From: Actinomycetota bacterium
GTDB lineage: Bacteria; Actinomycetota; Thermoleophilia; BMS3ABIN01
DNA: 64,000 nucleotides
Assembly: GCA_023382335.1 (NCBI GenBank)
Contig: JAMCPM010000013.1
Span: 1-64,000 of the forward strand
Direction: 5' to 3'
This document shows, one piece after another, positions 29,538-57,995 of the stretch. The translations under genes and the position numbers were made by a program. How positions within the stretch are numbered: position 1 is the stretch's first letter; each line of letters starts with the position of its first letter. The notes below the pieces were generated by a model. It saw nothing but the letters and a program-made list of their open reading frames with translations, searched no databases and had not been told where the DNA came from.

Positions 29538-29613
29538 GGGCGATTAGCTCAGCTGGGAGAGCACCTGCCTTACAAGCAGGGGGTCGGTGGTTCGAGCCCG
29601 CCATCGCCCACCA
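29538..29613 (+). tRNA. tRNA-Val (TAC), integration target
   Basis: A 76-nt cloverleaf with CCA. The acceptor GGGCGAT pairs with ATCGCCC, the anticodon stem CCTGC/GCAGG encloses CTTACAA, and the anticodon is TAC. Its last 51 bases are repeated at 36263-36313, so the gene is the attachment site of the element that follows. The tRNA remains intact. Confidence 0.97.
29563..29613 (+). repeat. attL of element 1 (3' part of tRNA-Val)
   Basis: A 51-base direct repeat identical to 36263-36313. It runs from the anticodon stem to the CCA end of tRNA-Val, the standard crossover region for tRNA-targeting tyrosine integrases. Confidence 0.93.
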
Positions 29614-34963: not shown

Positions 34964-36086
34964 GGGCCCGCGTACCCGCCACCTCTTCCACGATCCGCCC
35001 CGCCAGCTCCGCCGCCTGCCTGAGTATGCCGTCCTCGAAATGCGCGTACCGATGCGTCACCGTCTGCCCCTTATGTGTCAGTAGGCGGCTCACCACGTCG
35101 AGGGACACGCCGTTTGAAACCAGCATGGATGCGAACACGTGCCTAAGTCCATGCAGGGGCCTGAAATCAGACGGGAGCCCGGCTTCTGCCTTAATCTGGT
35201 TCACCTGTTTCTTGATGTCCACCAGCTGGCCGCCGCCCCTGCCTGGGAAGACGTAAGGGGAATCAGACTTTGCCGCCTGGATTTCGCCAAGCAGCCGCTC
35301 CGCGTAGCTACTCATGGGGATGATCTCATCGCGGCCTGATTTCGCATCCCTTAGCGTGATGTTTTTCCGGTGCCAGTCGATAGCATCCCACGTGAGTTTG
35401 AACATCTCAGATCGTCTCATGCCGGTAAGAAGCGCCAGCTTCATCATGTAAGCGCCCTGGCGACAAGGCGACTGGTAGATAACATGACCGCTCAACACCT
35501 CAAGCAGTCTGACCATCTGCTCCGGGGTTAGGTCTTCAGTCTTCTGATTGCTCACCCGGGGGAGCTGGATGATAAACCCCGGTCCTGGACAGAGGCCGCG
35601 CTTCATGCCGAAGTTAATGATTCGTCTTAGCAGACCAAGGACGTGAGCGACGGTCTGAGGGGACTTGTCTTTCAGCTCACGTCGTTTCAGCCTGTCGATG
35701 TCCAGCACTAGGATATGTTTGGGCTCCTTGTCGCCGAAATGGGGATCAAGGTACTTGCTGTAGAGGGACTCCATGCCCTTCTCGCGGCGGTCAGGGTTGG
35801 CCTTCTGATATTCTTCCCACAGCCTTGAGATCGTCCAGGTCTTCTTCACCCGGGCGGCCTGGGCGCGGCGCTCCTTGTTTGGTAGTTGGTCCCCGTGCAT
35901 CCGCTTTGCTCTGATATGGCTGGCCTTAGCCGGTGTCATCGCGTCACGGTGCCCGTGGCCTGCTACCTCTTCCACCTGCTTAAAACCGCCGTCAGTTTTG
36001 GGAAGGCGGTAACGGATGTAAAAGATTCTCTCCCCATCTTGTTCCCGAAAGTAGACACCCGGGTATTTCGTCTTCTGGCGTTTCAA
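34938..36086 (-). CDS. Tyrosine site-specific integrase
   Basis: 382 aa with a SAM-like N-terminal core-binding region and the catalytic set: Arg in LLTGMRRSEMFKLTW (about R224), HGLRHVFA (His312, Arg315), HKGQTVTHRYAHF (His338, Tyr347). It recombines the 51-bp tRNA-Val sites. It lies 180 bases from attR, the usual position. Confidence 0.95.
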   Translation of the reverse strand: MKRQKTKYPGVYFREQDGERIFYIRYRLPKTDGGFKQVEEVAGHGHRDAMTPAKASHIRAKRMHGDQLPNKERRAQAARVKKTWTISRLWEEYQKANPDRREKGMESLYSKYLDPHFGDKEPKHILVLDIDRLKRRELKDKSPQTVAHVLGLLRRIINFGMKRGLCPGPGFIIQLPRVSNQKTEDLTPEQMVRLLEVLSGHVIYQSPCRQGAYMMKLALLTGMRRSEMFKLTWDAIDWHRKNITLRDAKSGRDEIIPMSSYAERLLGEIQAAKSDSPYVFPGRGGGQLVDIKKQVNQIKAEAGLPSDFRPLHGLRHVFASMLVSNGVSLDVVSRLLTHKGQTVTHRYAHFEDGILRQAAELAGRIVEEVAGTRALTLQKGQA

Positions 36087-36262: not shown

Positions 36263-36313
36263 ACCTGCCTTACAAGCAGGGGGTCGGTGGTTCGAGCCCG
36301 CCATCGCCCACCA
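36263..36313 (+). repeat. attR of element 1
   Basis: A 51-base copy of the tRNA-Val 3' end, including the CCA. It also encodes, on the opposite strand, the last residues of the adjacent serine recombinase. Confidence 0.93.
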
Positions 36314-37802
36314 AGCTTCGCTTATCCGAACCTTCTTCCAGAAGGTCGTAAAATAAATCCGTAAATTCCGCGTCTACAATTTTTCCGTCTTTAACGACGA
36401 TCTTTTCAAAAAATGCCTTGTTATAAAATTGCTTAACGCTGCTGGTGCCTGTCTTGTAACCGAGTCCGCAACTCATGGCAATCTCTAGAGCAATATCCAG
36501 AACGCCCCTAAGCTGATCCAGCTGCGAATTAAGTACTTCAAGCCGGTCCTCAGCCTTCGCCGATTCTTTGGCAATTCTGTCCTGTTCTTTCTTAAGGACG
36601 TTTAGGGGAACAGCCTCGGCATAGTAAGCCTGCATCAGCTTGATTTGCTCATCGGCTAGCTTTGTTATCCGCTTTCCCAAGAACTGTTTTTCCATTGCAT
36701 TCGTAGACTGCTTCGAGACAAGTTCTTCATCAAATCGTTTTGTTAGCTTATCTGCTGTTTCCCGCGATATTTGTATATCTTCATAAAGTTGTTCAACCTG
36801 TGCTTCCATCTCAGCAGCCGCGATGTGTTTTGTATGCGTACACCCCCGCCTTCTTTTAGTTCCCAGGCAGAAGAAATAGATGTACTTACCCTTAGCGGTA
36901 TCAAGTGAGAGCCGAGAACCACAATGAGCGCAAAACAGAGTTCCCTTTAAGTAATGAGGATTCTTCCTTTTTCTGACCGCGCTACCCTGGTTTCTAATCT
37001 GGAAGGTTGCCTGGACCTTTTCAAAGAGCTGCTTGCTAACAAGGGGCTCGTGCTGGCCAGGATAAATGACTCCCTTATATCTGATCGCTCCCGTGTAAAA
37101 GGGATTTGTTAGGAGCTTTGAAATTGTGATCATAGTCATCGGCTTATGTGGCTCCCTTTGATTGACCATGCCCCGATCAAAAAAGAAATCCCTTATATCG
37201 TCCTGAGTGTAATTGCCAGTGGCATAGAGTTTGTAAGCTTCTTGTATATGCGGGGCAATCTCGGGATCAATGACGAGAGTGGCAATGTTTCTTGTCCCTT
37301 CCCTGACGTTCTTGTAGCCTAGCGGAGCCCGATGGGGCCACCCACCTTGTTTCACTTTTTCCAGCATTCCCTTCTGAACTTCCGCCGAAAGATTGGAGGA
37401 ATAAAACTCTGCAACGATGGCATGAATACCCTCTACCAGTTTTCCCGAGGCAGTGTCTTCGATATTTTCTACAACGGACTCAAGAGAACAGCCGGCTTTA
37501 GTCAGAATGGCCCTGATTGCTACGTGATCTTCCAGATTACGCGCTAGCCGGTCGATTTTATGAACGACCACGGCATCAATGTCCTTTTCCTTCGTGATCC
37601 GTGAGAGCATTTCCTGAAGTTGCGGCCGATCCGCACTCCTGGCTGACTCGCCCCGGTCGGTATATTCATCAATCAGAGTCCAGCCGTTATCCTGAACATA
37701 TTTGGTGCAGGCCTTTCTTTGGGCAGAGATTGAATAGCCCTCATCTTCATTTGTTTGAGCCTGCTCTTTAGTTGACACTCGAAGATAAATAATACAGTTC
37801 AT
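36270..37802 (-). CDS. Large serine recombinase
   Basis: 510 aa. The resolvase domain has the catalytic Ser at residue 10 (IIYLRVSTKEQ) and the VHKIDRLARN segment. A recombinase domain follows (LLTNPFYTGAIRYKGVIYPG), then a zinc-ribbon domain (LFCAHCGSRLS ... FFCLGTKRRRGC), a long coiled coil and a C-terminal tail. The last residues, VGDGGLEPPTPCL, are encoded antisense to the tRNA-Val fragment of attR, a frequent signature of genes that abut a tRNA end. It probably mobilises the region to the right. Confidence 0.92.
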   Translation of the reverse strand: MNCIIYLRVSTKEQAQTNEDEGYSISAQRKACTKYVQDNGWTLIDEYTDRGESARSADRPQLQEMLSRITKEKDIDAVVVHKIDRLARNLEDHVAIRAILTKAGCSLESVVENIEDTASGKLVEGIHAIVAEFYSSNLSAEVQKGMLEKVKQGGWPHRAPLGYKNVREGTRNIATLVIDPEIAPHIQEAYKLYATGNYTQDDIRDFFFDRGMVNQREPHKPMTMITISKLLTNPFYTGAIRYKGVIYPGQHEPLVSKQLFEKVQATFQIRNQGSAVRKRKNPHYLKGTLFCAHCGSRLSLDTAKGKYIYFFCLGTKRRRGCTHTKHIAAAEMEAQVEQLYEDIQISRETADKLTKRFDEELVSKQSTNAMEKQFLGKRITKLADEQIKLMQAYYAEAVPLNVLKKEQDRIAKESAKAEDRLEVLNSQLDQLRGVLDIALEIAMSCGLGYKTGTSSVKQFYNKAFFEKIVVKDGKIVDAEFTDLFYDLLEEGSDKRSLVGDGGLEPPTPCL

Positions 37803-41413: not shown

Positions 41414-42610
41414 ATGTCGCGGGCAACTAGAAAAAAACTAATCAAAGAAATCGAGAAGAAAAGGCAATCGAAAGTGATTACCTATGTTACTTGTGACCGG
41501 GATAACCTCCAGGCAATGATTATGCCTGACGCAGTTGCTAAAATTCATGATCACATTTTGGCTTTAAAAGAGGAAGAAAGAGCCAAATTGGATCTGTTCA
41601 TTTACAGCCGAGGGGGTGCGAGCGATGTTCCTTGGACTCTAGTCTCTATGTTTCGGGAATATTGCCATAAAGGTTCCTTTAGTGTCCTAATACCTTATAA
41701 GGCTCATAGTGCAGCGACAGTCATTTGTCTAGGGGCCGATGAAATTGTTATGACCAAGAAGGCTGAGCTTGGTCCAATTGATGCAACTATGAGTACTGGA
41801 CCTTACAATCCAACCGAGGGAGAAACCAGAAACAGACTTCCGGTATCCGTGGAAGACGTAACGGGGTATTTTGCTCTTCTTGACAGATTTGGCTGTGAAC
41901 GTCCTGAAGAAAAAATGAAGGGGTTTGAAGAGTTAACACAAAAAGTCCATCCTTTAGCCTTAGGGGCAGTAAGTCGCCTACTAGAGGAAACTAAGCTTGT
42001 CGGCTTGAGACTTTTAAGCACCCGAGCGAAGCCTTTTACAGAAGAAGAAAACCATGAGATTATTCGAAAGTTATCATCCGAGGTATATTCTCACAGTCAT
42101 GCCATTAACCGCACAGAAGCGGATAAATACCTTGGATTAAAACAAGTCAAAAATGCAGAAACAGCTGATCTTGAGGATGATCTCTGGAATTTGTATTTGG
42201 AATATAAGGAAATGTTTAATTTAGAAGAACCGTTCAATCCAGAAGAGCAGCTTATCAGGAACGATGAGCAAGAAAACACATGGAACGATCTTAACTTGGC
42301 TTGTATTGAGAGCGCCAAGCATCTTGATCTCTGTCAAAATTCTATTCGCGTTCGCCGAATTGGGCAAATACCCCCGACTATCAACTTAAATATAAGCAAT
42401 ATCCAGCTACCTACAATAAACATTCCGAACTTACCAGCACAGATTAATCAGCAACAAATTGAGGCGCTGATTCAACAAGTAGCAAATGCTTCCATGCAAC
42501 AAATGTTGAATAACGCTGCCCAGACAGCAATGTTGGAACTGATGAAATCATTACCAATCGCTGGATTTGAGAAGACAACCATCAAATCCGGTTGGACCAG
42601 AAAGGCTTAA
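41414..42610 (+). CDS. SDH_sah-type serine protease (ClpP/crotonase fold)
   Basis: 398 aa. The N-terminal two thirds match the serine dehydrogenase proteinase family: LDLFIYSRGGASDVPW (oxyanion region), YKAHSAATVICLGADEIVM (nucleophile Ser99) and KKAELGPIDATM. The last 90 residues are Asn/Gln-rich and hydrophobic (INLNISNIQLPTINIPNLPA) and not part of the family. The gene has its own regulated promoter and is AT-rich. It lacks a signal peptide, so it acts inside the cell. Its role here is unknown. Confidence 0.82.
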   Translation: MSRATRKKLIKEIEKKRQSKVITYVTCDRDNLQAMIMPDAVAKIHDHILALKEEERAKLDLFIYSRGGASDVPWTLVSMFREYCHKGSFSVLIPYKAHSAATVICLGADEIVMTKKAELGPIDATMSTGPYNPTEGETRNRLPVSVEDVTGYFALLDRFGCERPEEKMKGFEELTQKVHPLALGAVSRLLEETKLVGLRLLSTRAKPFTEEENHEIIRKLSSEVYSHSHAINRTEADKYLGLKQVKNAETADLEDDLWNLYLEYKEMFNLEEPFNPEEQLIRNDEQENTWNDLNLACIESAKHLDLCQNSIRVRRIGQIPPTINLNISNIQLPTINIPNLPAQINQQQIEALIQQVANASMQQMLNNAAQTAMLELMKSLPIAGFEKTTIKSGWTRKA

Positions 42611-42839: not shown

Positions 42840-44213
42840 ATGCACTCTAATCTAAAACTCGGCATGACTTTTGACAATTCCGGCAATCCCGCCGGTTTTT
42901 ATTTGCCTGAAGAGGACAGATCGACACACGTCTATGTTCTCGGTAGCTCGGGAGTTGGCAAGTCCAAGGGGCTCGCTACTTGGATTTTGGAAGATATAAG
43001 AAATGGTCGGGGTTGTGGGGTAATCGACCCCCACGGTGACCTTGTGAATGACATCGTGGGAAATATCGATAACTTTCGCCGTGTTGTCCTGGTCGAGATG
43101 ACCGACCCGGAAAACATCGTTGGCTTTAATCCTCTAGAACAGCAAGAAGGAGTTGACCCTTACACCCAAGCTTTGGAGCTTGTTGAAGTCTTCAGAAAGA
43201 TTTGGAATTTATCTGAAGACAAAACGCCGAGACTCATTGAGATTCTGAGAAATGCCGTCCTAACTTTGATTGAAGCAGGCGGCACGATGCTGGACATCGA
43301 ACCGCTCCTGACGGACGAGCAATTCAGAGAAGAAAAACTGAAATACGTGACCTATGAAGCGGTGGCTTCCTTTTGGCGCAAAAGGTTCGATCAATGGGAG
43401 CCCAAAGACCGCGTTTCAAATGTTGAATCCACTTTGAACAAGGTTTCCTCTTTCACTTCTGATCCAAGAATCCGGCTTATGCTTTCCGCTAAGAAATCAA
43501 CAATTGATTTCAGGCAGATCATGGACGAAGAAAAAACAGTTCTCATAAACTTGGCTAAGGGTGTCTTGAGGACAAACAGCTTTCTTTTGGGAGCTTTGTT
43601 TGTGGCTAAAATACAAATGGCGGCAATGTCCAGAGTAGATTTGCCGCCGTCAGAAAGGAAGCCTTTTTATCTGTACGTGGATGAATTTCAGAACTATGCG
43701 ACTTTGAGTTTTGCCGAGATTATGAGTGAAGCCAGGAAATACGGGCTTTCGCTAATCCTTGCTCACCAAAGTCTGGTTCAGTTAAGCGACGAATTGAGGG
43801 ATATTATTCTTGGCAATGCCAAGAACTTCATTATTTTCAGGTGCGACCGCCAGGACGCCGAGCTGATCATAAAATACATCAAGGATTATGACCCCTGGGA
43901 TTGGAAGCTCAAGACCGAAAGCTCAATAACTTACTTCTCCCGAGATGAACAATGGGAAGAAGGCATAGGGGAGCTAACGGGTATGCCGACACAGGTTGCC
44001 GTTCTAAAAACGAAGGGTAAAGAACCGACGATGTTCAGAACTTTTGATTTAGAAACCAGCTGGCGACTTGAGCAAAATCAGGCAACTTTGAGAGAAACAA
44101 ATACTGAGGCTGGCTATACCCTCAGCTTGAAAAGGTTGGATGAGGAGATCACTTTTCAAGCATTGCCAGCCGTCGAGACGGATGAGCCCGAGCCAGGGAG
44201 CTACCTCCTCTAA
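42840..44213 (+). CDS. VirD4/TraG-like coupling ATPase
   Basis: 457 aa soluble ATPase with Walker A GSSGVGKS at 35-42, GVIDPHGDLV, Walker B LYVDEFQNYATL near residue 280 and a C-terminal ILAHQSLVQL segment. These are the marks of the TraD/VirD4/HerA clan that pump DNA in conjugation. There are no N-terminal TM helices, as in many mobilisable elements. Together with the Replic_Relax protein it supports DNA transfer. Confidence 0.85.
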   Translation: MHSNLKLGMTFDNSGNPAGFYLPEEDRSTHVYVLGSSGVGKSKGLATWILEDIRNGRGCGVIDPHGDLVNDIVGNIDNFRRVVLVEMTDPENIVGFNPLEQQEGVDPYTQALELVEVFRKIWNLSEDKTPRLIEILRNAVLTLIEAGGTMLDIEPLLTDEQFREEKLKYVTYEAVASFWRKRFDQWEPKDRVSNVESTLNKVSSFTSDPRIRLMLSAKKSTIDFRQIMDEEKTVLINLAKGVLRTNSFLLGALFVAKIQMAAMSRVDLPPSERKPFYLYVDEFQNYATLSFAEIMSEARKYGLSLILAHQSLVQLSDELRDIILGNAKNFIIFRCDRQDAELIIKYIKDYDPWDWKLKTESSITYFSRDEQWEEGIGELTGMPTQVAVLKTKGKEPTMFRTFDLETSWRLEQNQATLRETNTEAGYTLSLKRLDEEITFQALPAVETDEPEPGSYLL

Positions 44214-45259: not shown

Positions 45260-46303
45260 ATGGCTTCAAATGAAGCGAGACATTACATTGATGCAATACA
45301 GCAAAGCGGGCTTTCCATATATGACAAGATCGAAGTTGGAGACCCAAATCTTTGGATTCCCTCTCCTGAACTCGAGATTATTCTTGATGAGGAACTAGAT
45401 GGGATCTCGTTGGCTGGCCTTCCGTTAAGGACACGTTCGAAAGTTGTCAAAGAATATGTTTGTCGGAGCTTGGGCTATCCTGTTCCTTCATCCTTCAAAA
45501 AGACCCAGCCTCGGTTTCCTGGTCAGTTATTTGATACATATGTTCAGAAGTCAAACAATCTTCAGGTATGGAACGAAGAACTGGCATCGACTCGTCGCTA
45601 TGTGATCATCCGGATTAATTCGGATGATGTTATCGTCAGAGTAAAGGTTGTGACAGGCGACACGCTTTCAACACTCGATACCACAGGAACTCTCACTCAA
45701 AAATATCAAGCGAGACTTATCCCTGGAGCAGTACAGGTAGAGCTTGTAAGTGAGGAAGATACAACTTTAATTAAGCTTTTTACAGTACCTGGCGTGCACT
45801 TAGGAGACATCGCTAGCCCCATTAGCTACCCTTTGGCGGGAGAACTACTTCCAATCAAGGAAATATTTACACGGCTGGCTGGGCTGGTAGGAACCAGTTT
45901 TGCTGACGCGGGATCTGACCAGGAACGGAATCGGGGTGGCGAACTTCATAAATTAGTTTGCCAACGCCTAGGCTACAAAGATTACAGGGATGACGGGCAG
46001 TTCCCAGACGTTCGTCACCAACTTGTGGAAGTGAAACTTCAAACTTCACCAACAATCGACCTCGGCCTAGTTTGCCCAAATAGTACTGAGCCCCTGGATG
46101 TTCCAAAAATAGAGGACCATCAAATCCGTCATTGCGATGTACGCTATGCTTTATTCTATGGTAACACTGACGGCCGGATAGTTAGCTTAACTCACTTTTT
46201 CTTAACTACCGGTGAAAAATTCTTCAGTCGTTTTCCACAATTTCAAGGCAAGGTGTTAAACAAGAAACTCCAAATACCCTTACCCGGCGATTTTTTCGAC
46301 TGA
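45260..46303 (+). CDS. Probable type II restriction endonuclease
   Basis: 347 aa. A PD-(D/E)xK-like site is visible: PDVRHQLVEVKLQ with Asp250, Glu257 and Lys259 in the C-terminal half, preceded by RGGELHKLVCQRLGY. The N-terminal half is unrecognised and may recognise DNA. It lies downstream of the controller gene and faces a DNA adenine methylase whose stop overlaps its own by 24 bases. Recognition sequence cannot be read from the protein; a SalI/XamI-like relation is only a guess. Confidence 0.75.
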   Translation: MASNEARHYIDAIQQSGLSIYDKIEVGDPNLWIPSPELEIILDEELDGISLAGLPLRTRSKVVKEYVCRSLGYPVPSSFKKTQPRFPGQLFDTYVQKSNNLQVWNEELASTRRYVIIRINSDDVIVRVKVVTGDTLSTLDTTGTLTQKYQARLIPGAVQVELVSEEDTTLIKLFTVPGVHLGDIASPISYPLAGELLPIKEIFTRLAGLVGTSFADAGSDQERNRGGELHKLVCQRLGYKDYRDDGQFPDVRHQLVEVKLQTSPTIDLGLVCPNSTEPLDVPKIEDHQIRHCDVRYALFYGNTDGRIVSLTHFFLTTGEKFFSRFPQFQGKVLNKKLQIPLPGDFFD

Positions 46304-48031
46304 TAAACCAAACGCTCTCCACACCAGTCGATCCAAATCATGCTCCAGCGTTTCCGATTTCTTTCCGGGAATGCAGGCAGCAGCTTCTTTTGCTTTGGCT
46401 ATGATCTGCTTGCCCACCGAATTATTGGGGTCGGGAAGAGGAAACTTTTCAACATATTGCGTAATAAACCGACGACGACCGGCATAGAGCTTGTTGTTGA
46501 ATTGAATGTCATAGAAACGTGTTATAAAGCTTGAATTACCTACAGCTGCAGCAAGCCATAATAGGTCTTCGCATTCTGGCTTATCGCAAATGAGCCAGTA
46601 GCAGTCGCCGTTGACAACAGATCCTTCATGGTCAATCCAGAAAGCCGGATCCTCGGCTATATCCCTGAAGACTAATTTCGTTTTCTGCCAGGAACTGGGG
46701 TCTTGCGGAACCCAGACTTCATACCATTGCCTCCCAGCCTCTAAAACGTATTTACGACTCTCCAACTCCTGCCGGTGCTTCTCCAAATACGCTCTGCTTC
46801 GCGGGAACAGCGTTAGATTAGCCGGACGTCTACAGTTATTTTCTACAATATGAGGATAGAGAATTTGTCTCTGTTTCTCGGGATTGAATGCCTTATAGCG
46901 ACGCGCATTATGGTGAGTCAATAGTGGCCGAATAAGCTCTGGACATTCATCATCCGGCATTTCATCCCAGTCAGACCTAATGAAAATGCGGTCCGCACAA
47001 GTTTTTACGCCGACACGGATTTTTCCAATGTCTCGAAAAGTCCCCCAGGTATGGGCCTGAACGGTAGCAAGCCAGGCATCGCTTCCTTCCGTTGCTATCC
47101 TCCAGACACTTTCTGGATTTTCATCAACAGCGAGATGACCATGTCTAACCAAGAAGCGTCGGCCATCTGGAATCTGAACAAGGCCATCGAGTGACAGGGC
47201 TTCAATCGGATTCAGGGCCTCTATCTCCGCCTCCTGATGACTTTCATAAATCGAAGAAAATAATGATGTGCTAGATTTGTGACCGTTTCTTCCTTCCGCA
47301 ATCAATACGGCCGGTAATACCGCTGCATCAAACAGCTTCGTGTCTCCTAGATCCCAAATATGCCGCAAGCGCAGTTGCTGTAAAATAGCGCGTCGGATTG
47401 AGCTTCCCGATCGAGTTGTCATAAAGCGGTTTGAAACTATTATTCCTGCTACTCCACGCGGCTTCAGAACTCGCGCCATGGCGAGAATAAACGCATAGTA
47501 AAGGTCGATGCGTCCTGATAGATCAAATTGTTCCGAAAGAACACGCGCCTGCCAGGCACCGATTATCTGGGTCCTTACGTACGGCGGATTGGCGATAATT
47601 AAATCAAAATTGTCGGGAAGATCAGGATTATCAAAAAGTGAGGGATGCTCCCTAAAGTTTTCTAAGACATACTCTAAAAAATTGTCTGCCTTTAGATGAA
47701 GCTGCACTCCTGGAAAATGATCTTGTAATCGTCGACGGGCGATCTCTAATTCTTCGCGATTAGGCTCAAAGGCAAAAACGTGTATGTCTCGGTCAGCATA
47801 TTCGCCAAGTGCCCGGAGAAGAGACAACAGCAGTTCTCCATCACCAAGGGCTGGGTCTAAAATTCGTAAAGGCACGTTGGCTGGACTACCCTCAAACTCC
47901 TTGATCATATTCTCAGCAACAAACCGTGCTAATGTCTCTGGAGTGTAAGTTGCCCCGTGTGCCTTTTTTTCGGATACAGCAGCGTAACGTCTTCTTGGCC
48001 TAACTGGCGCGCTACCCATTTGATTCTTCAT
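46280..48031 (-). CDS. N6-adenine DNA methyltransferase (TaqI/Eco57I-like class)
   Basis: 583 aa. The SAM-binding motif is RILDPALGDGELLLSLLRAL (about 57-76), motif IV is ANPPYVRTQ (NPPY at 148-151), and a long C-terminal target-recognition domain follows with FYDIQFNNKLYAGRRRFIT. It protects host DNA against the convergent endonuclease. Its start overlaps the upstream small HTH gene by 20 bases. Confidence 0.92.
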   Translation of the reverse strand: MKNQMGSAPVRPRRRYAAVSEKKAHGATYTPETLARFVAENMIKEFEGSPANVPLRILDPALGDGELLLSLLRALGEYADRDIHVFAFEPNREELEIARRRLQDHFPGVQLHLKADNFLEYVLENFREHPSLFDNPDLPDNFDLIIANPPYVRTQIIGAWQARVLSEQFDLSGRIDLYYAFILAMARVLKPRGVAGIIVSNRFMTTRSGSSIRRAILQQLRLRHIWDLGDTKLFDAAVLPAVLIAEGRNGHKSSTSLFSSIYESHQEAEIEALNPIEALSLDGLVQIPDGRRFLVRHGHLAVDENPESVWRIATEGSDAWLATVQAHTWGTFRDIGKIRVGVKTCADRIFIRSDWDEMPDDECPELIRPLLTHHNARRYKAFNPEKQRQILYPHIVENNCRRPANLTLFPRSRAYLEKHRQELESRKYVLEAGRQWYEVWVPQDPSSWQKTKLVFRDIAEDPAFWIDHEGSVVNGDCYWLICDKPECEDLLWLAAAVGNSSFITRFYDIQFNNKLYAGRRRFITQYVEKFPLPDPNNSVGKQIIAKAKEAAACIPGKKSETLEHDLDRLVWRAFGLSVEKIAG

Positions 48032-48212
48032 CCTTCACCTTATAATCCACCGTCTTTTCCGCAAGCCAAGACGATAAATCCCTCTCTTTTATTCTGTAGA
48101 GCCTGCCAATCTTTGCCGCAGGAATCTTTCCTTCACGGCACCATCTCCAAGCAGTTGCTTTTTCAACCTGGAGAATCTCTGCCACTTGTTCTACTGTTAG
48201 TAATTTTTCCAT
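48012..48212 (-). CDS. Excisionase-type helix-turn-helix protein
   Basis: 66 aa: LLTVEQVAEILQVEKATAWR, then WCREGKIPAAKIGRLYRIKE and a short basic tail. This is the MerR/Xis-like small HTH family. It overlaps the methylase start, so it may co-regulate the methylase, or be a directionality factor of the element. Confidence 0.8.
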   Translation of the reverse strand: MEKLLTVEQVAEILQVEKATAWRWCREGKIPAAKIGRLYRIKERDLSSWLAEKTVDYKVKDEESNG

Positions 48213-48343
48213 TCAACCTAATTGTAGTTGTTTATACTTAATTCTACTTATCAATTTATCATGGCCATTTTAACACGTCAAGAAGATAAATTCCGCTGAT
48301 TCAGTGGGTTTTCCACAGAATGAGTTCATTTTATCCTTTACAT

Positions 48344-48361
48344 TTACATATAGTATGTTAA
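48344..48361. promoter_or_regulatory. Candidate operator of the LexA-like repressor
   Basis: TTACATATAGTATGTTAA is an imperfect palindrome (arms TTACAT and ATGTTAA) ten bases before the repressor ATG, overlapping where its promoter or RBS should be. It would let the repressor control its own operon. Confidence 0.45.
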
Positions 48362-48371
48362 TATCTTATGT

Positions 48372-48989
48372 ATGAGTTCATTAACAGCTAAACAGCAGCG
48401 CGTTTTGAATGCAATCAAGGAATTCTCAAGAGTAGAAAGCCGTGTTCCTACGAGAAACGAGTTGGCGCATAGGCTCGGATTCAAATCTGTTAATTCAGTC
48501 CAACAGTACCTTTCAAAGCTTGAGGAAAAAGGTTACATCGAACTTGAGAAAGGCAAAGCTCGGGGCATGAGGGTCGTCGACGAAGGTCCTCATATAGTGA
48601 GTCTTCCGCTTGTCGGAAGTGTTGCCTGTGGTGGACCTATCCTTGCAGAGGAGAATATCGAGGCTTACATACCAATCGAACAGAGCTTTCTCAAAGATTC
48701 TTCAAATTATTTTTTCCTATCGGCACATGGGGATTCAATGAACTCGGTGGGGATTGATGACGGAGATCTCCTTCTCATTGAAAGCAAGTCCTCAGCAGAA
48801 CCTGGCGAAAAGATAGTTGCTCTGATTGGTGATGAGGCTACGGTAAAGGTTTACAAACCTAATGCTGGATTCGTGGCACTTCTGCCACAATCATCTAACC
48901 CGGTCCACAGACCCATCATTTTGACAAGCAATTTCAAAATCCAGGGTGTAGTAAAACAAGTAATCAAGCAGCGGCAGCTGAAGGCCTAA
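48372..48989 (+). CDS. lexA: LexA-like self-cleaving repressor
   Basis: 205 aa with the LexA winged-helix domain (TAKQQRVLNAIKEFSRVESR, LGFKSVNSVQQYLSKLEEKG), the cleavage site Cys86-Gly87 (VACGGP), the nucleophile Ser122 (HGDSMNSVG) and the general base Lys159 (ATVKVY). All parts needed for RecA-stimulated self-cleavage are present. It sits 35 bases before a ubiquitin-like gene in an accessory island, so it is probably a dedicated SOS-type switch for that operon and not the chromosomal LexA. The start has no clear RBS. Confidence 0.88.
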   Translation: MSSLTAKQQRVLNAIKEFSRVESRVPTRNELAHRLGFKSVNSVQQYLSKLEEKGYIELEKGKARGMRVVDEGPHIVSLPLVGSVACGGPILAEENIEAYIPIEQSFLKDSSNYFFLSAHGDSMNSVGIDDGDLLLIESKSSAEPGEKIVALIGDEATVKVYKPNAGFVALLPQSSNPVHRPIILTSNFKIQGVVKQVIKQRQLKA

Positions 48990-49024
48990 ACTATGAACAA
49001 TCAATAAAGAAAGGAGTGTTATTT

Positions 49025-49285
49025 ATGAACACTGAAAAAAAGCCGGAGAAATTAGTAACAATCTATGTCAACGGCGACGAGTTTGAAGAGCCCGACGGCG
49101 AGATTTCGTACGATCGAGTCGTTGACTTGGCCTTTCCGGGCGAGCGCGGCGAACCGAATAAAATGTTCACCGTCACTTACAAGCGTGGCCCCAGCAAGAA
49201 CGAGCAGGGATCACTCGTGGAAGGTGCCTCGGTGAAGATAAAGAACAAAATGATTTTCGATGTTACGCCGACTACTCGATCATAA
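49025..49285 (+). CDS. Ubiquitin-like protein (multiubiquitin family, single domain)
   Basis: 86 aa from the ATG preceded by AAAGGAGTGTTATTT. The beta-grasp pattern is KLVTIYVNGDEFEEPDGEIS, YDRVVDLAFPG, KMFTVTYKRGP, GSLVEGASVKIKNKMIFDVT. This matches the bacterial multiubiquitin domain, here as one copy. The C-terminus is TPTTRS, without the Gly-Gly of conjugated ubiquitins. The following E1 gene overlaps it by 26 bases. Confidence 0.85.
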   Translation: MNTEKKPEKLVTIYVNGDEFEEPDGEISYDRVVDLAFPGERGEPNKMFTVTYKRGPSKNEQGSLVEGASVKIKNKMIFDVTPTTRS

Positions 49286-50435
49286 TCCGTCAATCCAGCG
49301 ACTGGTCGATGAGGGTTATCACGTTGGGACCGAAGGCGGATATCTATTTATCCACGATGTACCGTACGTTACATCAAGTTGCAAAATAGAGCGGGCTACA
49401 ATAGCAGACCAATTATCTGGTGATATTGATTCGATACCAGCAGACCACACAATTTGGTTTACAGGCTCAGACCCTTGTGACGCAAACGGTAACGTCCTTA
49501 CCTACTTGGCGCGCCCATGCGCAAAGACATTAATAGACGGTATAAACGCCCAGCATCAATTCTCTCAAAAGCCGGCAATCGGCCCGCAGAATTATGGTGA
49601 CCATTATAAAAAGATGGTTACCTATATTGGAATGCTTGAGGGTCAAGCTATGGCTCTCGATCCCAACGTTACTGCTCGGACCTTTCATCCAATCGAAGAT
49701 GACGATGAAGCATCTCCCTTCAAATACCTTGACACTGCATCAACACGGGCCGGTATTGTCCTTGCGACTTCCAGACTTAAAATGGACCGGGTCGCAATTG
49801 TTGGTCTTGGTGGCACAGGATCCTATATTCTCGATCAACTCGCGAAGCTGCCTATTCAGGAGATTCACCTTTTTGATCCCGATACGTTTAACCAGCACAA
49901 TGCTTTTCGAACTCCCGGAGCAGCGTCGCTTGATCAACTGAATGGGCACCCAAAAAAAGTTGATTATCTAAAGGCGCTCTACGAGCCCATGCGCAGTGGG
50001 ATTTTTTCTCACCCAGTGCCAATAGATGAATCTAACGTTGCTCTACTCACGGACATGAATTTTGTCTTTATGGCCTTCGATGGAGGGCCAGCCAAGGCTG
50101 CTCTTATTTCTCACCTGACAGCGATTAACGTTCCGTTTATTGATGTCGGTATGGGCCTTAAAGAGAAAGACGGGCAGCTGGTTGGACAGGTTCGAATGAG
50201 CTCGATTACCGGTGCTAATCAAGAAAGAGCCACCGACCAAAACTTTATTCCATGCTCAGATCCCGAAGAAAATGAGTATGATTTTAATGTGCAGGTCGCA
50301 GATATGAACGCAATGAGCGCACTTCTCGCAGTAATTAGGTTCAAAAAGATCTTGGGTTTCTATAAGGACTTCGAGGATAGCCCGTACTATGTATATGGAA
50401 TATTCGATAACAGCATCATCGCTGAGGCTCCATAA
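49260..50435 (+). CDS. ThiF-family E1 with N-terminal DUF6791-like domain
   Basis: 391 aa. The N-terminal 160 residues (LLDHNPSIQRLVDEGYHVGT, TIWFTGSDPCDANGNVLTYL, ALDPNVTARTFHPI, KYLDTASTRAGI) match the domain called DUF6791. It might act like an E2, and Cys73 is the candidate residue. The C-terminal E1 domain has VAIVGLGGTGSYILDQL (ATP loop at about 178-194), LFDPDTFNQHNAFR (Asp206, Arg217) and a Cys332 region. It would adenylate the Ubl C-terminus. The gene starts inside the Ubl gene. Confidence 0.88.
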   Translation: MLRRLLDHNPSIQRLVDEGYHVGTEGGYLFIHDVPYVTSSCKIERATIADQLSGDIDSIPADHTIWFTGSDPCDANGNVLTYLARPCAKTLIDGINAQHQFSQKPAIGPQNYGDHYKKMVTYIGMLEGQAMALDPNVTARTFHPIEDDDEASPFKYLDTASTRAGIVLATSRLKMDRVAIVGLGGTGSYILDQLAKLPIQEIHLFDPDTFNQHNAFRTPGAASLDQLNGHPKKVDYLKALYEPMRSGIFSHPVPIDESNVALLTDMNFVFMAFDGGPAKAALISHLTAINVPFIDVGMGLKEKDGQLVGQVRMSSITGANQERATDQNFIPCSDPEENEYDFNVQVADMNAMSALLAVIRFKKILGFYKDFEDSPYYVYGIFDNSIIAEAP

Positions 50436-50854
50436 TGGGTTTCCCTATCGATACCATCCAGACTGAGGAAGTCGAAACGATGCCAAATACGTTTCGACCG
50501 GGTGTACTTTACGTTTCCTATAAATTTGAAACTGCGTCCCACTTATGTAGTTGTGGTTGTGGCACACGCGTCGTAACGCCGCTTGGTCCGGGGCGCTGGC
50601 GTCTTACGCAAGGGCGCAATGGCCCAACTCTCAGCCCATCAATTGGCAATACAAGTCAGCCCTGTCGTTCACACTATTTCATTCGTAATGGTCAAGTGCG
50701 ATGGGCACGAGAGATGTCCGATGAGGAACACCTGTTCGCAATCACCGCTGATAGAGAAGCAGCTGTTGAGGCACTAGTACCAACTTTGGGCTGGCGTATG
50801 CGCGTCAAGTTGTGGGGCATGAAATGGATTAAGCGCTTGCTATCTCGCAGCTGA
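50435..50854 (+). CDS. DUF6527 family zinc-binding-like protein
   Basis: 139 aa. ATG overlaps the E1 stop as TAATG. Conserved Cys38, Cys40, Cys42 (LCSCGCGTRVVTPLGPGRW) and Cys77 with His80 (QPCRSHYFIRNGQVRWA) look like a metal site. This family is repeatedly found next to Ubl/ThiF pairs. The C-terminus is basic with a short hydrophobic run. Its function is unknown: a metal-dependent peptidase or ligase partner is possible. Confidence 0.8.
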   Translation: MGFPIDTIQTEEVETMPNTFRPGVLYVSYKFETASHLCSCGCGTRVVTPLGPGRWRLTQGRNGPTLSPSIGNTSQPCRSHYFIRNGQVRWAREMSDEEHLFAITADREAAVEALVPTLGWRMRVKLWGMKWIKRLLSRS

Positions 50855-50951: not shown

Positions 50952-50980
50952 TTGACAATATATTCTATTTATGTTATTAT
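50952..50980 (+). promoter_or_regulatory. Consensus sigma-70-type promoter
   Basis: TTGACA (50952-50957), exactly 17 bases, then TATTAT (50975-50980). It drives the gene at 51108 through a structured leader of about 120 nt. Confidence 0.8.
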
Positions 50981-50987
50981 TGTCCGG

Positions 50988-51107
50988 TACCTTAAGAAAG
51001 TAGAACGTACTGGGGCAGTGATAAGTTCATAAGAAATTATGAATTTTTTGCTGCTCCATTATGGGAGCTGCTCCGCATGAGCGGGAAAATTCATGAAAGG
51101 AGTAGCA
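50988..51107 (+). promoter_or_regulatory. Structured 5' leader with alternative pairings
   Basis: Within this leader TTCATAA-GAAA-TTATGAA (51026-51043) followed by six T forms a weak terminator-like hairpin. Its 3' arm ATGAATTTT (51039-51047) can instead pair with AAAATTCAT (51086-51094), next to the AAAGGAG ribosome-binding site. Between them GCTCC/GGAGC and CCGC/GCGG can form small hairpins. The two long pairings exclude each other. Confidence 0.55.
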
Positions 51108-51557
51108 ATGCTCAATCCTTCGCCAGCAAGAATCAGCGTGAAAGATGGACATGGCTCGGACAACAAAGTCTTCTCCATCACGGGGCTGAACTTCATCCAG
51201 ATCAGCAAGGCGCTGAGCTTTAGCGACGACGACGTATTTACGTCAATGCCGCTCGCCAGGAATCAGGAATTCTTCGCCAAGAAGATGGACTGCCTGAGTT
51301 ACGACGGCAAGTTGTTGATCGAACGGCTCGACTCAATCATGGGAATCACCTACCTGCACATCTACCCTTACAAGGTCGAGGTGTCCAAGGCAGATGCCTA
51401 CGAGTGGGAGGAGCTCATGCCTCACATCATGGAGGCAATCGCCGAACTGTACCGCCGCAATACCATCTTCGAGGTGAAGGCGCAGAACACGAGCGGCGAG
51501 AAAGTCAGGTGGAACACCGGTCGTGTGGGCATGTCCCTCAAGCCGATGCTCGCCTAA
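51108..51557 (+). CDS. Unknown 149-aa protein with a regulated leader
   Basis: Start at the ATG preceded by AAAGGAGTAGCA. The sequence (MLNPSPARISVKDGHGSDNK, ITGLNFIQISKALSFSDDDV, LIERLDSIMGITYLHIYPYK) suggests an alpha-beta fold of about 100 residues. The NIFEVKA-like strand near the C-terminus is part of the same fold. I recognise no family. It is GC-richer than its neighbours, has its own promoter and terminator, and is framed by repeat copies D and A, so it is a separate module. Confidence 0.65.
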   Translation: MLNPSPARISVKDGHGSDNKVFSITGLNFIQISKALSFSDDDVFTSMPLARNQEFFAKKMDCLSYDGKLLIERLDSIMGITYLHIYPYKVEVSKADAYEWEELMPHIMEAIAELYRRNTIFEVKAQNTSGEKVRWNTGRVGMSLKPMLA

Positions 51558-51863: not shown

Positions 51864-52703
51864 ATGAAAGATTATTATTTGAAGCAAAATCTAAAATCTC
51901 TTGGTGATACTGAGGCAAGGCTGCTTTCGTCTTTGTCCTCAAAGGGCAAGGGAGTCTTTACGCTGGCTGATGCCCTTGAAGCCACAAAGGGATCGTATAC
52001 GGCTACACGCAAACTTGTTCATGATCTGACCGAAAAGAAGTGGCTGATCCGTTTGACTAAGGGCAAATATTTAATCATTCCCTTTGAGGCGGCCGAAACA
52101 GGCGAACACTCCGAGAACTGGTTCGTTATCGCCGAAAAACTTATTCACCCAAAACCGTATTACATCTCTCATTACAGCGCCCTGGATATTCATGAGATGG
52201 TGACACAGCCAGTCATGACCGTATATATCAGTACGCCCATTCGCAGAATTCCAAAAAACATCCTGGGGGCCACATTCCGCTTCATTTACACCAAGCCCGA
52301 AGATCTTTGGGGCCTTGAGGATGTATGGGTAACTCAGTCGCAGAAAGTCAAAACCAGCGATCTTGAGAGAACCATCCTTGATTGCCTGGACAGACCCGAA
52401 CTTTGCGGCGGCGTTAGCGAAGTTTCCAAAGGGATCTGGACAAAAAGGAATGAGATCGATTATTTCAAGCTGGCGAACTATGCAAAGCAGCTGGGACGGA
52501 AAAGCGTTATCAAAAGGCTCGGTTTCATTCTTGAAACCTATTCTCTTGGCAATCAGGAAATGCTATCTACTTTGAAAAGGGAACTCACGAACAGCTACAC
52601 TCTTCTGGATCCGTCTTTGCCAGTCTCCGGCCGTTTCAAGAGTTCCTGGAAGGTGAGAGCTAACGTCGAGCCGCAAGAATTAATAGAAATAACAAGGACT
52701 TAA
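51864..52703 (+). CDS. abiEi: AbiEi-type antitoxin
   Basis: 279 aa with an N-terminal winged helix (GKGVFTLADALEATKGSYTA, LVHDLTEKKWLIRLTKGKYL) and the AbiEi core (KPYYISHYSALDIHEMVTQP, VKTSDLERTILDCLDRPELC). AbiEi represses its own operon and counters the AbiEii nucleotidyltransferase. Its stop is directly followed by the toxin ATG. Confidence 0.88.
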   Translation: MKDYYLKQNLKSLGDTEARLLSSLSSKGKGVFTLADALEATKGSYTATRKLVHDLTEKKWLIRLTKGKYLIIPFEAAETGEHSENWFVIAEKLIHPKPYYISHYSALDIHEMVTQPVMTVYISTPIRRIPKNILGATFRFIYTKPEDLWGLEDVWVTQSQKVKTSDLERTILDCLDRPELCGGVSEVSKGIWTKRNEIDYFKLANYAKQLGRKSVIKRLGFILETYSLGNQEMLSTLKRELTNSYTLLDPSLPVSGRFKSSWKVRANVEPQELIEITRT

Positions 52704-53504
52704 ATGATTCCACAAGCAGAGATGTCAAAGTCAGCGTTCCGTGAGGGCATGAGTGACAAAGTCATTGAAAAAGACTACGTCATTACCTGGATTCTGTTGG
52801 CTTTGTCTGATTCCAGTCTCAAGGAATTTCTCGTTTTCAAAGGCGGTACTGCTCTAAAGAAAATCTACTTCCCAGATTACCGCTACTCTGAAGATCTTGA
52901 TTTCACTCTGAGGAAAGAAATTGCCAATAAGGAATTACTGGCGCGACTCGACGCGACATTAGACGCGCTGGCTAAGGAGCAAGGATTTCAATTCGATATT
53001 CCACCCGAGAAAATCGAAGAACGCGCTGATAGTCTGACCGCATACGTCAATTTTGTCGGTCCGCTTCAAGCCAGGCTGGATAGCAGGAGCATTAAACTTG
53101 ATTTCACCCTGACTGAAAAATTGATCTTTCCAATTGAAGCCCAAAAAATACACTCACCGTTTAGCGATGCAGTGCGGAAGAAGTTCGCCACTTATTCTCT
53201 GGAAGAAATCCTTGTCGAAAAGCTATGTGCCATTATTGGTCGTACTGAACCTCGGGATATTTACGATGTAAATTATCTTTTCGGCGTGGGCGATATCGAT
53301 TTCCACAAAATCCCGGATGCTTTCAGGGAGAAGGCCGAATTCAAGGGAATTGATCCGGAGAGACTAAGCGGAAGCCTAAATGACAAGAAAGATAAATATG
53401 AGCGAATGTGGGAAACGCGCCTGAAGCATCAGATCAAGCATCTGCCCCATCTGGCAGAAGTTCTACGAGAGTTGAATCGAAATCTGAGAAAGTATGATCT
53501 TTAA
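52704..53504 (+). CDS. abiEii: AbiEii-type nucleotidyltransferase toxin
   Basis: 266 aa with the nucleotidyltransferase motifs FKGGTALKKIY (46-50) and YSEDLDFTL (62-69), and the family middle block SLEEILVEKLCAIIGRTEPRDIYD in two parts. This type IV toxin modifies tRNA or other targets and causes abortive infection. All key motifs are present. Confidence 0.9.
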   Translation: MIPQAEMSKSAFREGMSDKVIEKDYVITWILLALSDSSLKEFLVFKGGTALKKIYFPDYRYSEDLDFTLRKEIANKELLARLDATLDALAKEQGFQFDIPPEKIEERADSLTAYVNFVGPLQARLDSRSIKLDFTLTEKLIFPIEAQKIHSPFSDAVRKKFATYSLEEILVEKLCAIIGRTEPRDIYDVNYLFGVGDIDFHKIPDAFREKAEFKGIDPERLSGSLNDKKDKYERMWETRLKHQIKHLPHLAEVLRELNRNLRKYDL

Positions 53505-53676: not shown

Positions 53677-54693
53677 ATGGAGGTTACAACAGTTGGCCTG
53701 GATCTGGCAAAGAACATTTTTCAGTTGCACGCAGTAGACAGGCGGGGGAAGACTATTTTGAAGAAACGACTTACCAGGAACAAGGTGCTGCCATTTTTTA
53801 CCAATATGGCTCCTTGCCTGATCGGCATGGAGGCCACCGGGTCCGCCCATCACTGGGCCCGGGAGTTGGGGAAGCTGGGCCACGAGATAAAGTTGATTGG
53901 TCCGCAGTTCGTCAAGCCATACCGCAAGGGCTCCAAGAACGACCAGAACGACGCCGCGGCGATCTGTGAGGCTGTCGGCAGGCCGGATATGCATTTTGTG
54001 CCGGCCAAGACGAAGGAGCAGCAGGACATCCAGGCGGTCCACCGCATCAGGCAGCGGCTGGTGGCAGATAGAACCTCTAAGGCCAATCAGACCCGGGGCC
54101 TGCTCTCCGAATACGGCATTATCATTCCCCAGGGGATACGCAGACTGAGGAAGCAACTGCCGTTTATCCTGGAGGACGCCGACAACGGCCTTTCACCCCT
54201 GGCCCGCGAACTTTTCGGCGACCTTTACCGCCAGCTGCTTGAGCTGGATGAAAAAATATCTTCCTACGACCGGAAGATCGGGCAGATATTCAAAAGCAGC
54301 CCTGTTTGTCAAAGGCTGGCTCAGGTTGAGGGGGTCGGTCCCATGATAGCCACGGCTATGGTCGCAGCTGTCGGTGACGGCAGGAACTTCAAAAATGGCA
54401 GGCAGATGGCCGCTTGGCTGGGGCTGGTTCCCGGACAGAATTCCAGCGGCGATAAGCGCAGGCTGCTCTCCATTACCAAGCGGGGTGACTGTTACTTAAG
54501 AACCCTGCTCGTGCATGGAGCTAGATCGGTGGCCAGAAGATCGGATGGTAAAAATGACAGTCGCAGCCTCTGGCTAAACAGGATCAAAGACCGGCGCAAC
54601 ATAAACATCGCCGCGGTCGCCCTGGCCAACAAAAATGCCCGCATCCTCTGGGCGCTTTTGGTCAGCGGCGAAGAATACAGGGCCTGCGCCTAG
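53677..54693 (+). CDS. IS110-family transposase
   Basis: 338 aa. The RuvC-like DEDD domain has VGLDLAKNIFQLHAVD, GMEATGSAHHWA and KNDQNDAAAICEA; the C-terminal Transposase_20 domain has LAQVEGVGPMIATAMVAAVG and the catalytic Ser region GQNSSGDKRRL. It appears full length. Such recombinases use a bridge RNA encoded in the noncoding end of the element. Confidence 0.95.
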   Translation: MEVTTVGLDLAKNIFQLHAVDRRGKTILKKRLTRNKVLPFFTNMAPCLIGMEATGSAHHWARELGKLGHEIKLIGPQFVKPYRKGSKNDQNDAAAICEAVGRPDMHFVPAKTKEQQDIQAVHRIRQRLVADRTSKANQTRGLLSEYGIIIPQGIRRLRKQLPFILEDADNGLSPLARELFGDLYRQLLELDEKISSYDRKIGQIFKSSPVCQRLAQVEGVGPMIATAMVAAVGDGRNFKNGRQMAAWLGLVPGQNSSGDKRRLLSITKRGDCYLRTLLVHGARSVARRSDGKNDSRSLWLNRIKDRRNINIAAVALANKNARILWALLVSGEEYRACA

Positions 54694-56326: not shown

Positions 56327-57457
56327 TTATAAGCCGAGTCGTGCATCCTGGAAGAGCTTCACATATGGCTCAAAACGAAAGCGCCGGTTGCGGGCAAAGC
56401 CGGTCATCTCTTCAAGGATCCCCAACTGAGTCATCCGGTAAGCCAGCTGATTGGCGGCCGCGTAGCTTTTCCCGGTGATATCCTTAATGTCATTCACAGT
56501 TACAATTGGCCTTAGATAAAGCGTATCCAGCGCCTTGAGCCCGCTGGCTGCAGCAAGGCCAAAATTTTCAGTTATCGCCAGCCGGTGAGATTCGCGCGGC
56601 TCAAGAATTCTCCGTGCAGTCCCCGCAGCCTCGTTGCTCACTTCGGCAATGCCTCGCAAAAAGAAGGATAACCACTCTTCCCAATTTCCGCGATCCCTGA
56701 TGTTCTGCAAGCGGTCGTAATAGGTTTGCCTGTGACGCCTGAAGTAATGGGAAAGATAGAGGACGGGCTGGTGGAGGATCTCGCGTTCGGTTAACAGGAA
56801 AGTGATAAGCAGGCGACCGAGGCGGCCATTCCCGTCAAGAAATGGATGTATGGTCTCGAACTGAGCATGTGCCAGACCCACCTTAATGAGGAATGGCAGC
56901 TCGTTTGTCTTGTGAATGAACAGCTCCCACTGGCCCAAGAGTTCCGGCAAATCATTCGGTGGCGGTGGGACGAAGGTGGCCTCGGCCAGAGTGCTGCCTG
57001 CCGGCCCGATCCAGTTCTGGCTGCGTCGCACTTCTCCCGGCGTTGCATGGCTGCCACGAACGTCCTTGAGGAGCGTCGCGTGTATTTCCTTGATGAGACG
57101 GATTGAGACTGGCAGCTCGGTAAGACGCGCCAGCCCCTGATTCATGGCCTGGACGTAATTTATCACCTCGTCTACATCGCGCGGCGTCTGATTGGTGAAG
57201 ACCTTTGCTTCGGCGGCCAGGAGGTCCTGAAGGGAGCTTTGTGTACCTTCTATCTGGCTGGATAGTACCGCCTCTTTCCTCACATACATCATCACGAAGA
57301 GATCGGGGTTCGGAAGAACGGACGCGGAAATGCCCTTTCTTGCGTTGGAAAATGCAATGACAAGAGGCAAAACTACTGAAATCAGGACCTCAAGGCTGAC
57401 GGGGGAAAGGCCGATGCTGCGCTTCTTCCTGAAGATCTTGAAGTCTTTCAATGCCAC
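56327..57457 (-). CDS. Fic-domain protein with N-terminal inhibitory motif
   Basis: 376 aa. The Fic motif is HPFLDGNGRLGR at 204-215, preceded by a QNWIGPAGSTLAEATFVPPP flap. An inhibitory helix S-S-Q-I-E-G lies near residues 66-71, and a C-terminal winged helix starts near residue 310. This is the class of self-inhibited AMP-transferases. The first 45 residues look atypical compared with relatives, which usually have a longer proline-rich start, so the N-terminus may be trimmed. Confidence 0.88.
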   Translation of the reverse strand: MALKDFKIFRKKRSIGLSPVSLEVLISVVLPLVIAFSNARKGISASVLPNPDLFVMMYVRKEAVLSSQIEGTQSSLQDLLAAEAKVFTNQTPRDVDEVINYVQAMNQGLARLTELPVSIRLIKEIHATLLKDVRGSHATPGEVRRSQNWIGPAGSTLAEATFVPPPPNDLPELLGQWELFIHKTNELPFLIKVGLAHAQFETIHPFLDGNGRLGRLLITFLLTEREILHQPVLYLSHYFRRHRQTYYDRLQNIRDRGNWEEWLSFFLRGIAEVSNEAAGTARRILEPRESHRLAITENFGLAAASGLKALDTLYLRPIVTVNDIKDITGKSYAAANQLAYRMTQLGILEEMTGFARNRRFRFEPYVKLFQDARLGL

Positions 57458-57854: not shown

Positions 57855-57995
57855 ATGATCATTAGGGGCAAGCAGGCGTATGAGAAGCCGAGTCTTTCCA
57901 GGCGCGGGAATATCCGGGACATCACCTTCAACCATTCTTCCTGGACCTGCAGCATCGGCTTCGACGACGACGACGACCACGGCCACGACGACTAG
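57855..57995 (+). CDS. Orphan RiPP-like precursor with a lasso-type leader motif
   Basis: 46 aa, ATG preceded by GGGGGAG. The leader has Tyr9, Pro12, Leu14, Gly18 and Thr24 (YEKPSLSRRGNIRDIT), an exact fit to the Y-x2-P-x-L-x3-G-x5-T pattern of lasso precursors. The rest, beginning about residue 26, reads NHSSWTCSIGF followed by five Asp, HGH and two Asp. No Asp or Glu occurs at core positions 7-9, so a normal lasso ring cannot form. No maturation gene is nearby. A terminator follows, supporting expression as a single small gene. Confidence 0.7.
   Translation: MIIRGKQAYEKPSLSRRGNIRDITFNHSSWTCSIGFDDDDDHGHDD

Follow-up and report, generated by a model that had tools for sequence, protein, structure and literature searches.

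Within a 64,000-nucleotide stretch of DNA from an Actinomycetota bacterium (the whole of which we call the window), a gene for a LexA-like repressor stands directly ahead of genes for a ubiquitin-like protein (Ubl), an E1-like enzyme and a DUF6527 protein. The locus raises the question of what this operon encodes, and of whether the repressor is its dedicated switch, responding to DNA damage, or a regulator that merely landed beside it. According to the ORF list of the window, the four genes are co-directional on the + strand, with a 35-base gap between lexA and ubl and overlaps of 26 bases (ubl/E1) and 1 base (E1/DUF6527), in exact agreement with the earlier note:

48372-48989, + strand: LexA-family repressor, 205 aa, winged HTH and S24 self-cleaving domain
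49025-49285, + strand: Ubl (BubA-like, Multi_ubiq), 86 aa, one beta-grasp domain, C-terminus TTRS
49260-49285, + strand: overlap of the ubl end and the E1 start, 26 bases, this exact length in 93/94 loci
49260-50435, + strand: E1-like adenylating enzyme, 391 aa, N-terminal DUF6791 and BubD-like ThiF domain
50435-50854, + strand: DUF6527 protein, 139 aa, probable metal site

The 35-base gap follows from taking the ATG at 49025, downstream of an AAAGGAG ribosome site, as the probable start of ubl; an alternative in-frame GTG lies upstream at 49016. By family search, the repressor matches TIGR00498 at 167.5 bits (curated cut-off 110.95 bits) as well as PF01726 and Peptidase_S24 (PF00717), the Ubl matches Multi_ubiq (PF14452) at 2.7e-13, the E1 matches DUF6791 at 6.5e-43 and ThiF at 2.7e-10, and the last protein matches DUF6527 at 4.9e-24. 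On the strength of these matches, and of the similarity of the E1 to BubCD described below, the last three genes are a recognised bacterial ubiquitination-like (Bub) module of the DUF6791/DUF6527 subtype, and the previous reading of the locus as a Ubl/E1 operon holds. Bub is defined in PMC13373217, which cites Gong et al. 2025 and Ye et al. 2026 for Bub operons.

To place the module among its relatives we compared 94 DUF6791 modules from plasmids, genome contigs and genomes of the host phylum. An alignment query of the genome contigs returned more than 580 relatives, 80 of which were kept; single-sequence scans of the genome contigs and viral contigs returned no relatives, and the E1 had no match among phage records. 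Since the three-gene core recurs across many phyla, its gene order and 26-base overlap being unchanged in 93/94 loci, the operon is not a chance arrangement. The overlap has the consensus AATGTCACAGCAACTGATAAGTCGTAG, and this conserved overlapping-frame junction may couple the translation of Ubl and E1. No gene 3' of DUF6527, whether for an E2 or a JAB protein or anything else, recurs across the 94 loci, and in none of them does a BubB or E2-like (RWD) gene lie between the overlapping ubl and E1 genes. The Ubl ends in Ser in 93/94 loci, usually as T-x-[KRQ]-S, and in 42/94 it is no longer than 110 aa, about one domain. The single Ubl domain, the TTRS end without Gly-Gly and the lack of an E2 or JAB gene, all of which had been listed as oddities of this operon, are thus present as described but are the norm of the subtype. 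The comparison further shows that the DUF6791 Bub subtype gets by on three genes alone, so that its E2-like and deconjugating steps would have to be supplied by DUF6791, DUF6527 or proteins of the host. Operons of this kind were described by Iyer et al. (2006) as type 6e, with one to three Ubl repeats, an occasional E2-like (RWD) protein, and a subset in which the E1 is fused to a non-JAB N-terminal domain. The E1 of the window, at whose locus we found no JAB-type peptidase gene or fused domain and whose N-terminal domain is DUF6791, therefore belongs to a recognised subtype.

Ahead of lexA we predict a single promoter with a LexA operator inside it, and a possible end of the transcript beyond DUF6527:

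48337-48364, + strand: predicted operon promoter, -35 TTTACA, 16-nt spacer, -10 TAATAT preceded by TG
48344-48360, unstranded: predicted LexA operator O1, TTACATA-TAG-TATGTTA, between -35 and -10
48357-48373, unstranded: possible second operator O2, GTTAATATCTTATGTAT, overlapping the -10 and the start codon
50918-50931, + strand: terminator-like hairpin and T tail, a consensus match only, not above shuffle background

The promoter agrees with consensus at 9 of 12 positions, which is weak on its own, and its predicted start point is at or adjoining the lexA ATG, making the transcript leaderless. Between lexA and ubl neither a + strand promoter nor a terminator was predicted. The operator can be compared with four LexA-led operons of Elusimicrobiota, in which the palindrome ATACATA-N3-TATGTAT (one copy has a half-site change) lies between a TTGACA-type -35 and the -10, about 27 to 11 bases ahead of the start codon (ATG) of lexA. 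The window operator differs from this consensus at three positions and has the same distance to the start codon as in the Bub and methylase operons of genome G424, the CBASS operon of G751 and the TcmP operon of G433. When the window was scanned with a matrix built only from four Elusimicrobiota operators, the two top sites were O1 at 16.2 and O2 at 14.9 bits (about 48343 and 48356), the next best elsewhere reaching 10.0 bits, and mononucleotide shuffles of the AT-rich upstream sequence attained the score of the window operator in 25 of 5000 cases. Counting three-mismatch matches to the consensus alone is much weaker than the matrix and not significant (2 found, 0.55 expected). Within the clade described below, helix and site vary together, the recognition helix SVNSxQQY going with TACATA-N3-TATGTA and SPRS-type helices with other sites, e.g. 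TATACA-N3-TGTATA. The exact O1 sequence occurs nowhere else in the 2.45 Mb genome, so an SOS-like regulon with many operators was not found. In viral contigs, LexA follows none of the exact operator-like matches, which look like chance or unrelated repeats and were set aside. The earlier note's claims that LexA leads the operon and that the operon is under its own LexA-like switch both gain from this analysis: lexA opens the predicted transcription unit to which the Ubl genes also belong, and a dedicated predicted operator, the best of the window scan, lies in its promoter, within the interval from 48344 that the note marked.

Our preferred reading, to which we assign a probability of about 0.72, is that a horizontally acquired DUF6791/DUF6527 Bub operon is silenced by a dedicated, autoregulated LexA-family repressor and induced on DNA damage. 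LexA would bind TTACATA-N3-TATGTTA in the spacer between -35 and -10 of the operon's one promoter and from there repress its own gene and the Ubl genes. DNA damage, as from phage attack or replication failure, would lead RecA filaments to trigger self-cleavage of LexA at Cys86-Gly87 by way of Ser122/Lys159, and this would turn the operon on, so that Ubl tagging would follow the damage. The strongest support for this predicted switch is the independent operator match combined with the immune neighbourhood of the clade to which the repressor belongs.

The predicted scissile bond is Cys86-Gly87, with Ser122/Lys159 as the dyad. Cys-Gly is the bond cleaved in UmuD, whereas the bond of SOS LexA is Ala-Gly. 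We searched 336 genomes of Elusimicrobiota and 396 of the host phylum with the LexA alignment. In a tree of 68 LexA rows, the window LexA groups with 12 others in a clade with support 93, the two halves of which have support 99 and 96; the host LexA beside dinB and the LexAs adjoining dnaE2 and dinB lie outside it. The Cys-Gly bond and the catalytic Ser and Lys are kept in all 13 distinct proteins of the clade, and 12 of these stand ahead of immune genes (Bub, CBASS, restriction-modification, TcmP/DUF5131):

window; G424:C222: LexA, then Bub
G424:C95: LexA, then DNA methylase
G424:C7, G751, G651: LexA, then CBASS phospholipase and cyclase
G433: LexA, then TcmP and DUF5131
G749 (two members): LexA, then BsuBI/PstI restriction-modification; second methylase set
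G663: LexA, then Dam-type methylase set
G428: LexA, then DpnI
G362: LexA, then AlwI restriction-modification
G669: LexA, then ComM-like gene, not immune

For LexAs outside the clade, among those listed, roughly 6 of 44 first genes match defence models, and seven are SOS polymerases. We lean slightly towards regarding the Cys-Gly LexA clade as a fourth modular family of DNA-damage controllers for immune operons, which in different phyla has been joined separately to Bub, to CBASS and to restriction systems, DpnI-type among them, with its own operator each time and with helix and operator changing together. It would then be an interchangeable immune switch in the role of CapW, CapH+CapP or CapK+CapS. 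No report of LexA-led CBASS or defence operons was found in a literature search of partial coverage, which makes this a weak negative; the same partial search suggests, weakly, that while the Bub core is known, a LexA-family Bub controller and an immune-dedicated LexA clade have not been described.

Three Elusimicrobiota loci (L185, L114, L192) hold CBASS operons, consisting of a patatin phospholipase and a CD-NTase, headed by LexA repressors of the same clade. At a further locus, L186, a LexA-led pair of TcmP (PADLOC candidate PDC-M41A) and DUF5131 has the same operator as the Bub operons and is a possible uncharacterised defence cassette.

One could also speculate that such a switch answers a signal other than DNA damage, for instance a phage protein or an anti-repressor acting without RecA, since some S24-type repressors are released by anti-repressors. 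We consider this unlikely: the self-cleavage machinery is complete, with the Cys-Gly bond invariant in 13/13 clade members, and the regulators that replace LexA in other Bub operons resemble DNA-damage sensors, one of which, CapK, is activated by single-stranded DNA (PMC13373217). We take induction of the operon by DNA damage to be probable; a RecA gene is present in the host.

These replacing regulators deserve a closer look. CapW/BrxR, CapH+CapP and CapK+CapS are the DNA-damage controllers of immune operons described in PMC13373217, where 219 of 544 Bub operons carry CapW or CapH+CapP and 59 carry CapK+CapS, and where LexA is not mentioned. Beside the window operon we found no CapW (WYL), CapH+CapP (HTH and M78) or CapK+CapS (STAS/GHKL), but a LexA-family gene instead. 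Upstream of the 94 DUF6791 modules, ImmA/IrrE (Peptidase_M78) genes are found in about 46 loci, WYL genes in five and STAS-type pairs in three, the rest having other or unassigned genes; several of these ImmA/IrrE, WYL and STAS-pair regulators are relatives of the published controllers. LexA leads only two of the 94, the window and L064, which comes from an Elusimicrobiota genome, and this rarity among Bub operons is the strongest caution against the proposed switch. Rarity of the repressor in homologous operons had been named beforehand as a point that would tell against the idea of induction, and as far as LexA itself is concerned it is indeed rare. With relatives of DNA-damage switches in the same place, however, and with the LexA clade leading other immune operons, the idea comes out strengthened, not refuted. 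In a tree of the E1s, made by a quick method and with the window as a long branch, the window and L064 fall in separately supported groups, which suggests that LexA came to Bub on two or more occasions, or replaced another regulator. L025, the sister of the window in the E1 tree, has too short an upstream sequence to show a regulator.

The rarity of LexA also favours a different explanation, namely that lexA, whether an ordinary SOS gene or one for a prophage-type repressor, came to lie ahead of Bub incidentally and controls itself or other genes, as do a protein score above the general lexA cut-off and a region full of mobile elements. Yet the two LexA-led modules, from unrelated genomes and on two E1 branches, have similarly short lexA-ubl gaps of 35 and 30 bases, with no promoter or terminator between the two genes in the window. 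The host also has a separate lexA-dinB locus, whose LexA is only about 30% identical to that of the window, and the uniqueness of the operator in the genome argues against an SOS regulon. Given, in addition, that sister LexAs lie directly ahead of CBASS and restriction-modification genes and that no clade relatives were found in viral contigs, we regard this explanation as quite unlikely.

The dedicated switch that we favour includes horizontal acquisition of the operon. The operon lies in an island with a GC content of mostly 0.42-0.50, lower than the roughly 0.60 on its left and the 0.60-0.65 on its right. Among the mobile genes of the island are those for a coupling protein of the TraG type, an integrase and a serine recombinase. 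Among the 60 nearest genomes, host included, DUF6791 is found in the host only, so that the operon looks like a recent arrival.

Several further features of the island were observed. The 3' half of a tRNA-Val gene (29563-29613) is repeated from 36263, beside a tyrosine integrase (34938-36086) and a serine recombinase (36270-37802); the repeats, on the left margin of the island, are likely att sites left when an element integrated there. Also on the left, a TraG/TraD-like coupling ATPase (42840-44213) adjoins a ClpP-like SDH-type serine protease (41414-42610). A type II restriction enzyme, a methylase and a small HTH_17 gene (45260-48212) lie directly upstream of lexA and divergent from it, and AbiEi/AbiEii (51864-53504) and Fic (56327-57457) lie downstream of the operon; the type II restriction-modification, AbiEi/AbiEii and Fic genes together are a defence island. 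Right after the operon, a 154-aa ORF (51093-51557) has a weak Nfu_N match and its own strong promoter-like site, TTGACA-17-TATTAT, at 50952. Within the island, an ORF at 53677-54693 resembles, by eye, an IS110-type transposase. A 46-aa ORF at 57855-57995, MIIRGKQAYEKPSLSRRGNIRDITFNHSSWTCSIGFDDDDDHGHDD, resembles a lasso-type RiPP precursor, and the genome's sole Transglut_core3 match lies elsewhere, on contig C8.

As to what the switch would release, the AlphaFold2 model of the E1 (mean pLDDT 82.7) has Citrobacter BubCD chains as all of its top eight matches in a structure search of the PDB (E about 1e-14 to 1e-13), and BubCD is also the best PDB match by sequence, with a profile match of 9e-10. 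UBA5 is a further match, and MccB and PaaA are structural neighbours. The Ubl matches the solved multi-ubiquitin protein 9cd2 at 3e-7, which ends in VTQTDKS, also without Gly-Gly. The G-x-GG-x-G loop of the E1, D206/D208, N214, R217 and K233 are kept in 94/94 E1s. No E1 cysteine is invariant; Cys73 of DUF6791, present in 88/94, was for this reason dropped as a candidate catalytic cysteine. The E1 would adenylate the C-terminal serine of the Ubl and drive its attachment to targets, with DUF6791 presumably in place of the JAB domain of other Bub E1s. The DUF6527 protein has invariant H36, C38, C40, C42, C77 and H80, a probable metal site that contains the C-x-C-x-C pointed out in the earlier note (residues 38/40/42), and would probably remove or process the Ubl. 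It has no fold or profile match in the PDB that would back a possible peptidase role, and a text search of the literature on DUF6527 found nothing. A sulfur-carrier or small-molecule biosynthesis pair (ThiS/ThiF- or MccB-like) in place of protein tagging, as could be suggested by a ThiF-type domain without an invariant catalytic cysteine, a module without E2, and MccB and PaaA as neighbours, is most improbable given that there is no Gly-Gly end for a thiocarboxylate, that the best matches are Bub proteins and UBA5, and that restriction-modification and AbiE genes, with no biosynthetic genes, lie nearby.

Protection against phage has not been demonstrated for any Bub operon (PMC13373217). Immune operons able to harm the cell need a lock, and three such locks that respond to DNA damage, CapW, CapH+CapP and CapK+CapS, all unrelated to one another, have been described. 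If the LexA branch were a fourth, the textbook SOS switch would be tied directly to bacterial immunity, the convergence on DNA damage as an alarm would be strong, and Bub induction could be followed with a one-protein, one-site reporter system.

Set beside known systems, the window operon shares with Bub operons a Multi_ubiq Ubl, a BubCD-matching ThiF-type E1, a metal-type accessory protein, a mobile, patchy distribution and a regulator gene beside the promoter, and differs from them in having DUF6791 and not JAB on its E1, in being without a BubB-like gene, and in having a LexA-family regulator as first co-directional gene. With BilABCD (bacterial ISG15-like) it has in common the idea of bacterial Ubl conjugation, although it is without an E2 or JAB gene and its E1 architecture differs. 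Its LexA is like SOS LexA (TIGR00498) in winged HTH and S24 domains, Ser/Lys dyad and, by prediction, autoregulation, but its clade has a Cys-Gly and not an Ala-Gly bond, an operator class of its own (ATACATA-N3-TATGTAT) and immune genes rather than repair polymerases behind it, and the window LexA has a single-operon regulon and co-exists with the host lexA-dinB. Finally, CapW/BrxR, CapH+CapP and CapK+CapS are likewise swappable repressors beside Bub, CBASS and restriction-modification genes and follow the same DNA-damage logic; they are, however, unrelated proteins, whereas the window would use one self-cleaving LexA, with no separate protease or kinase.
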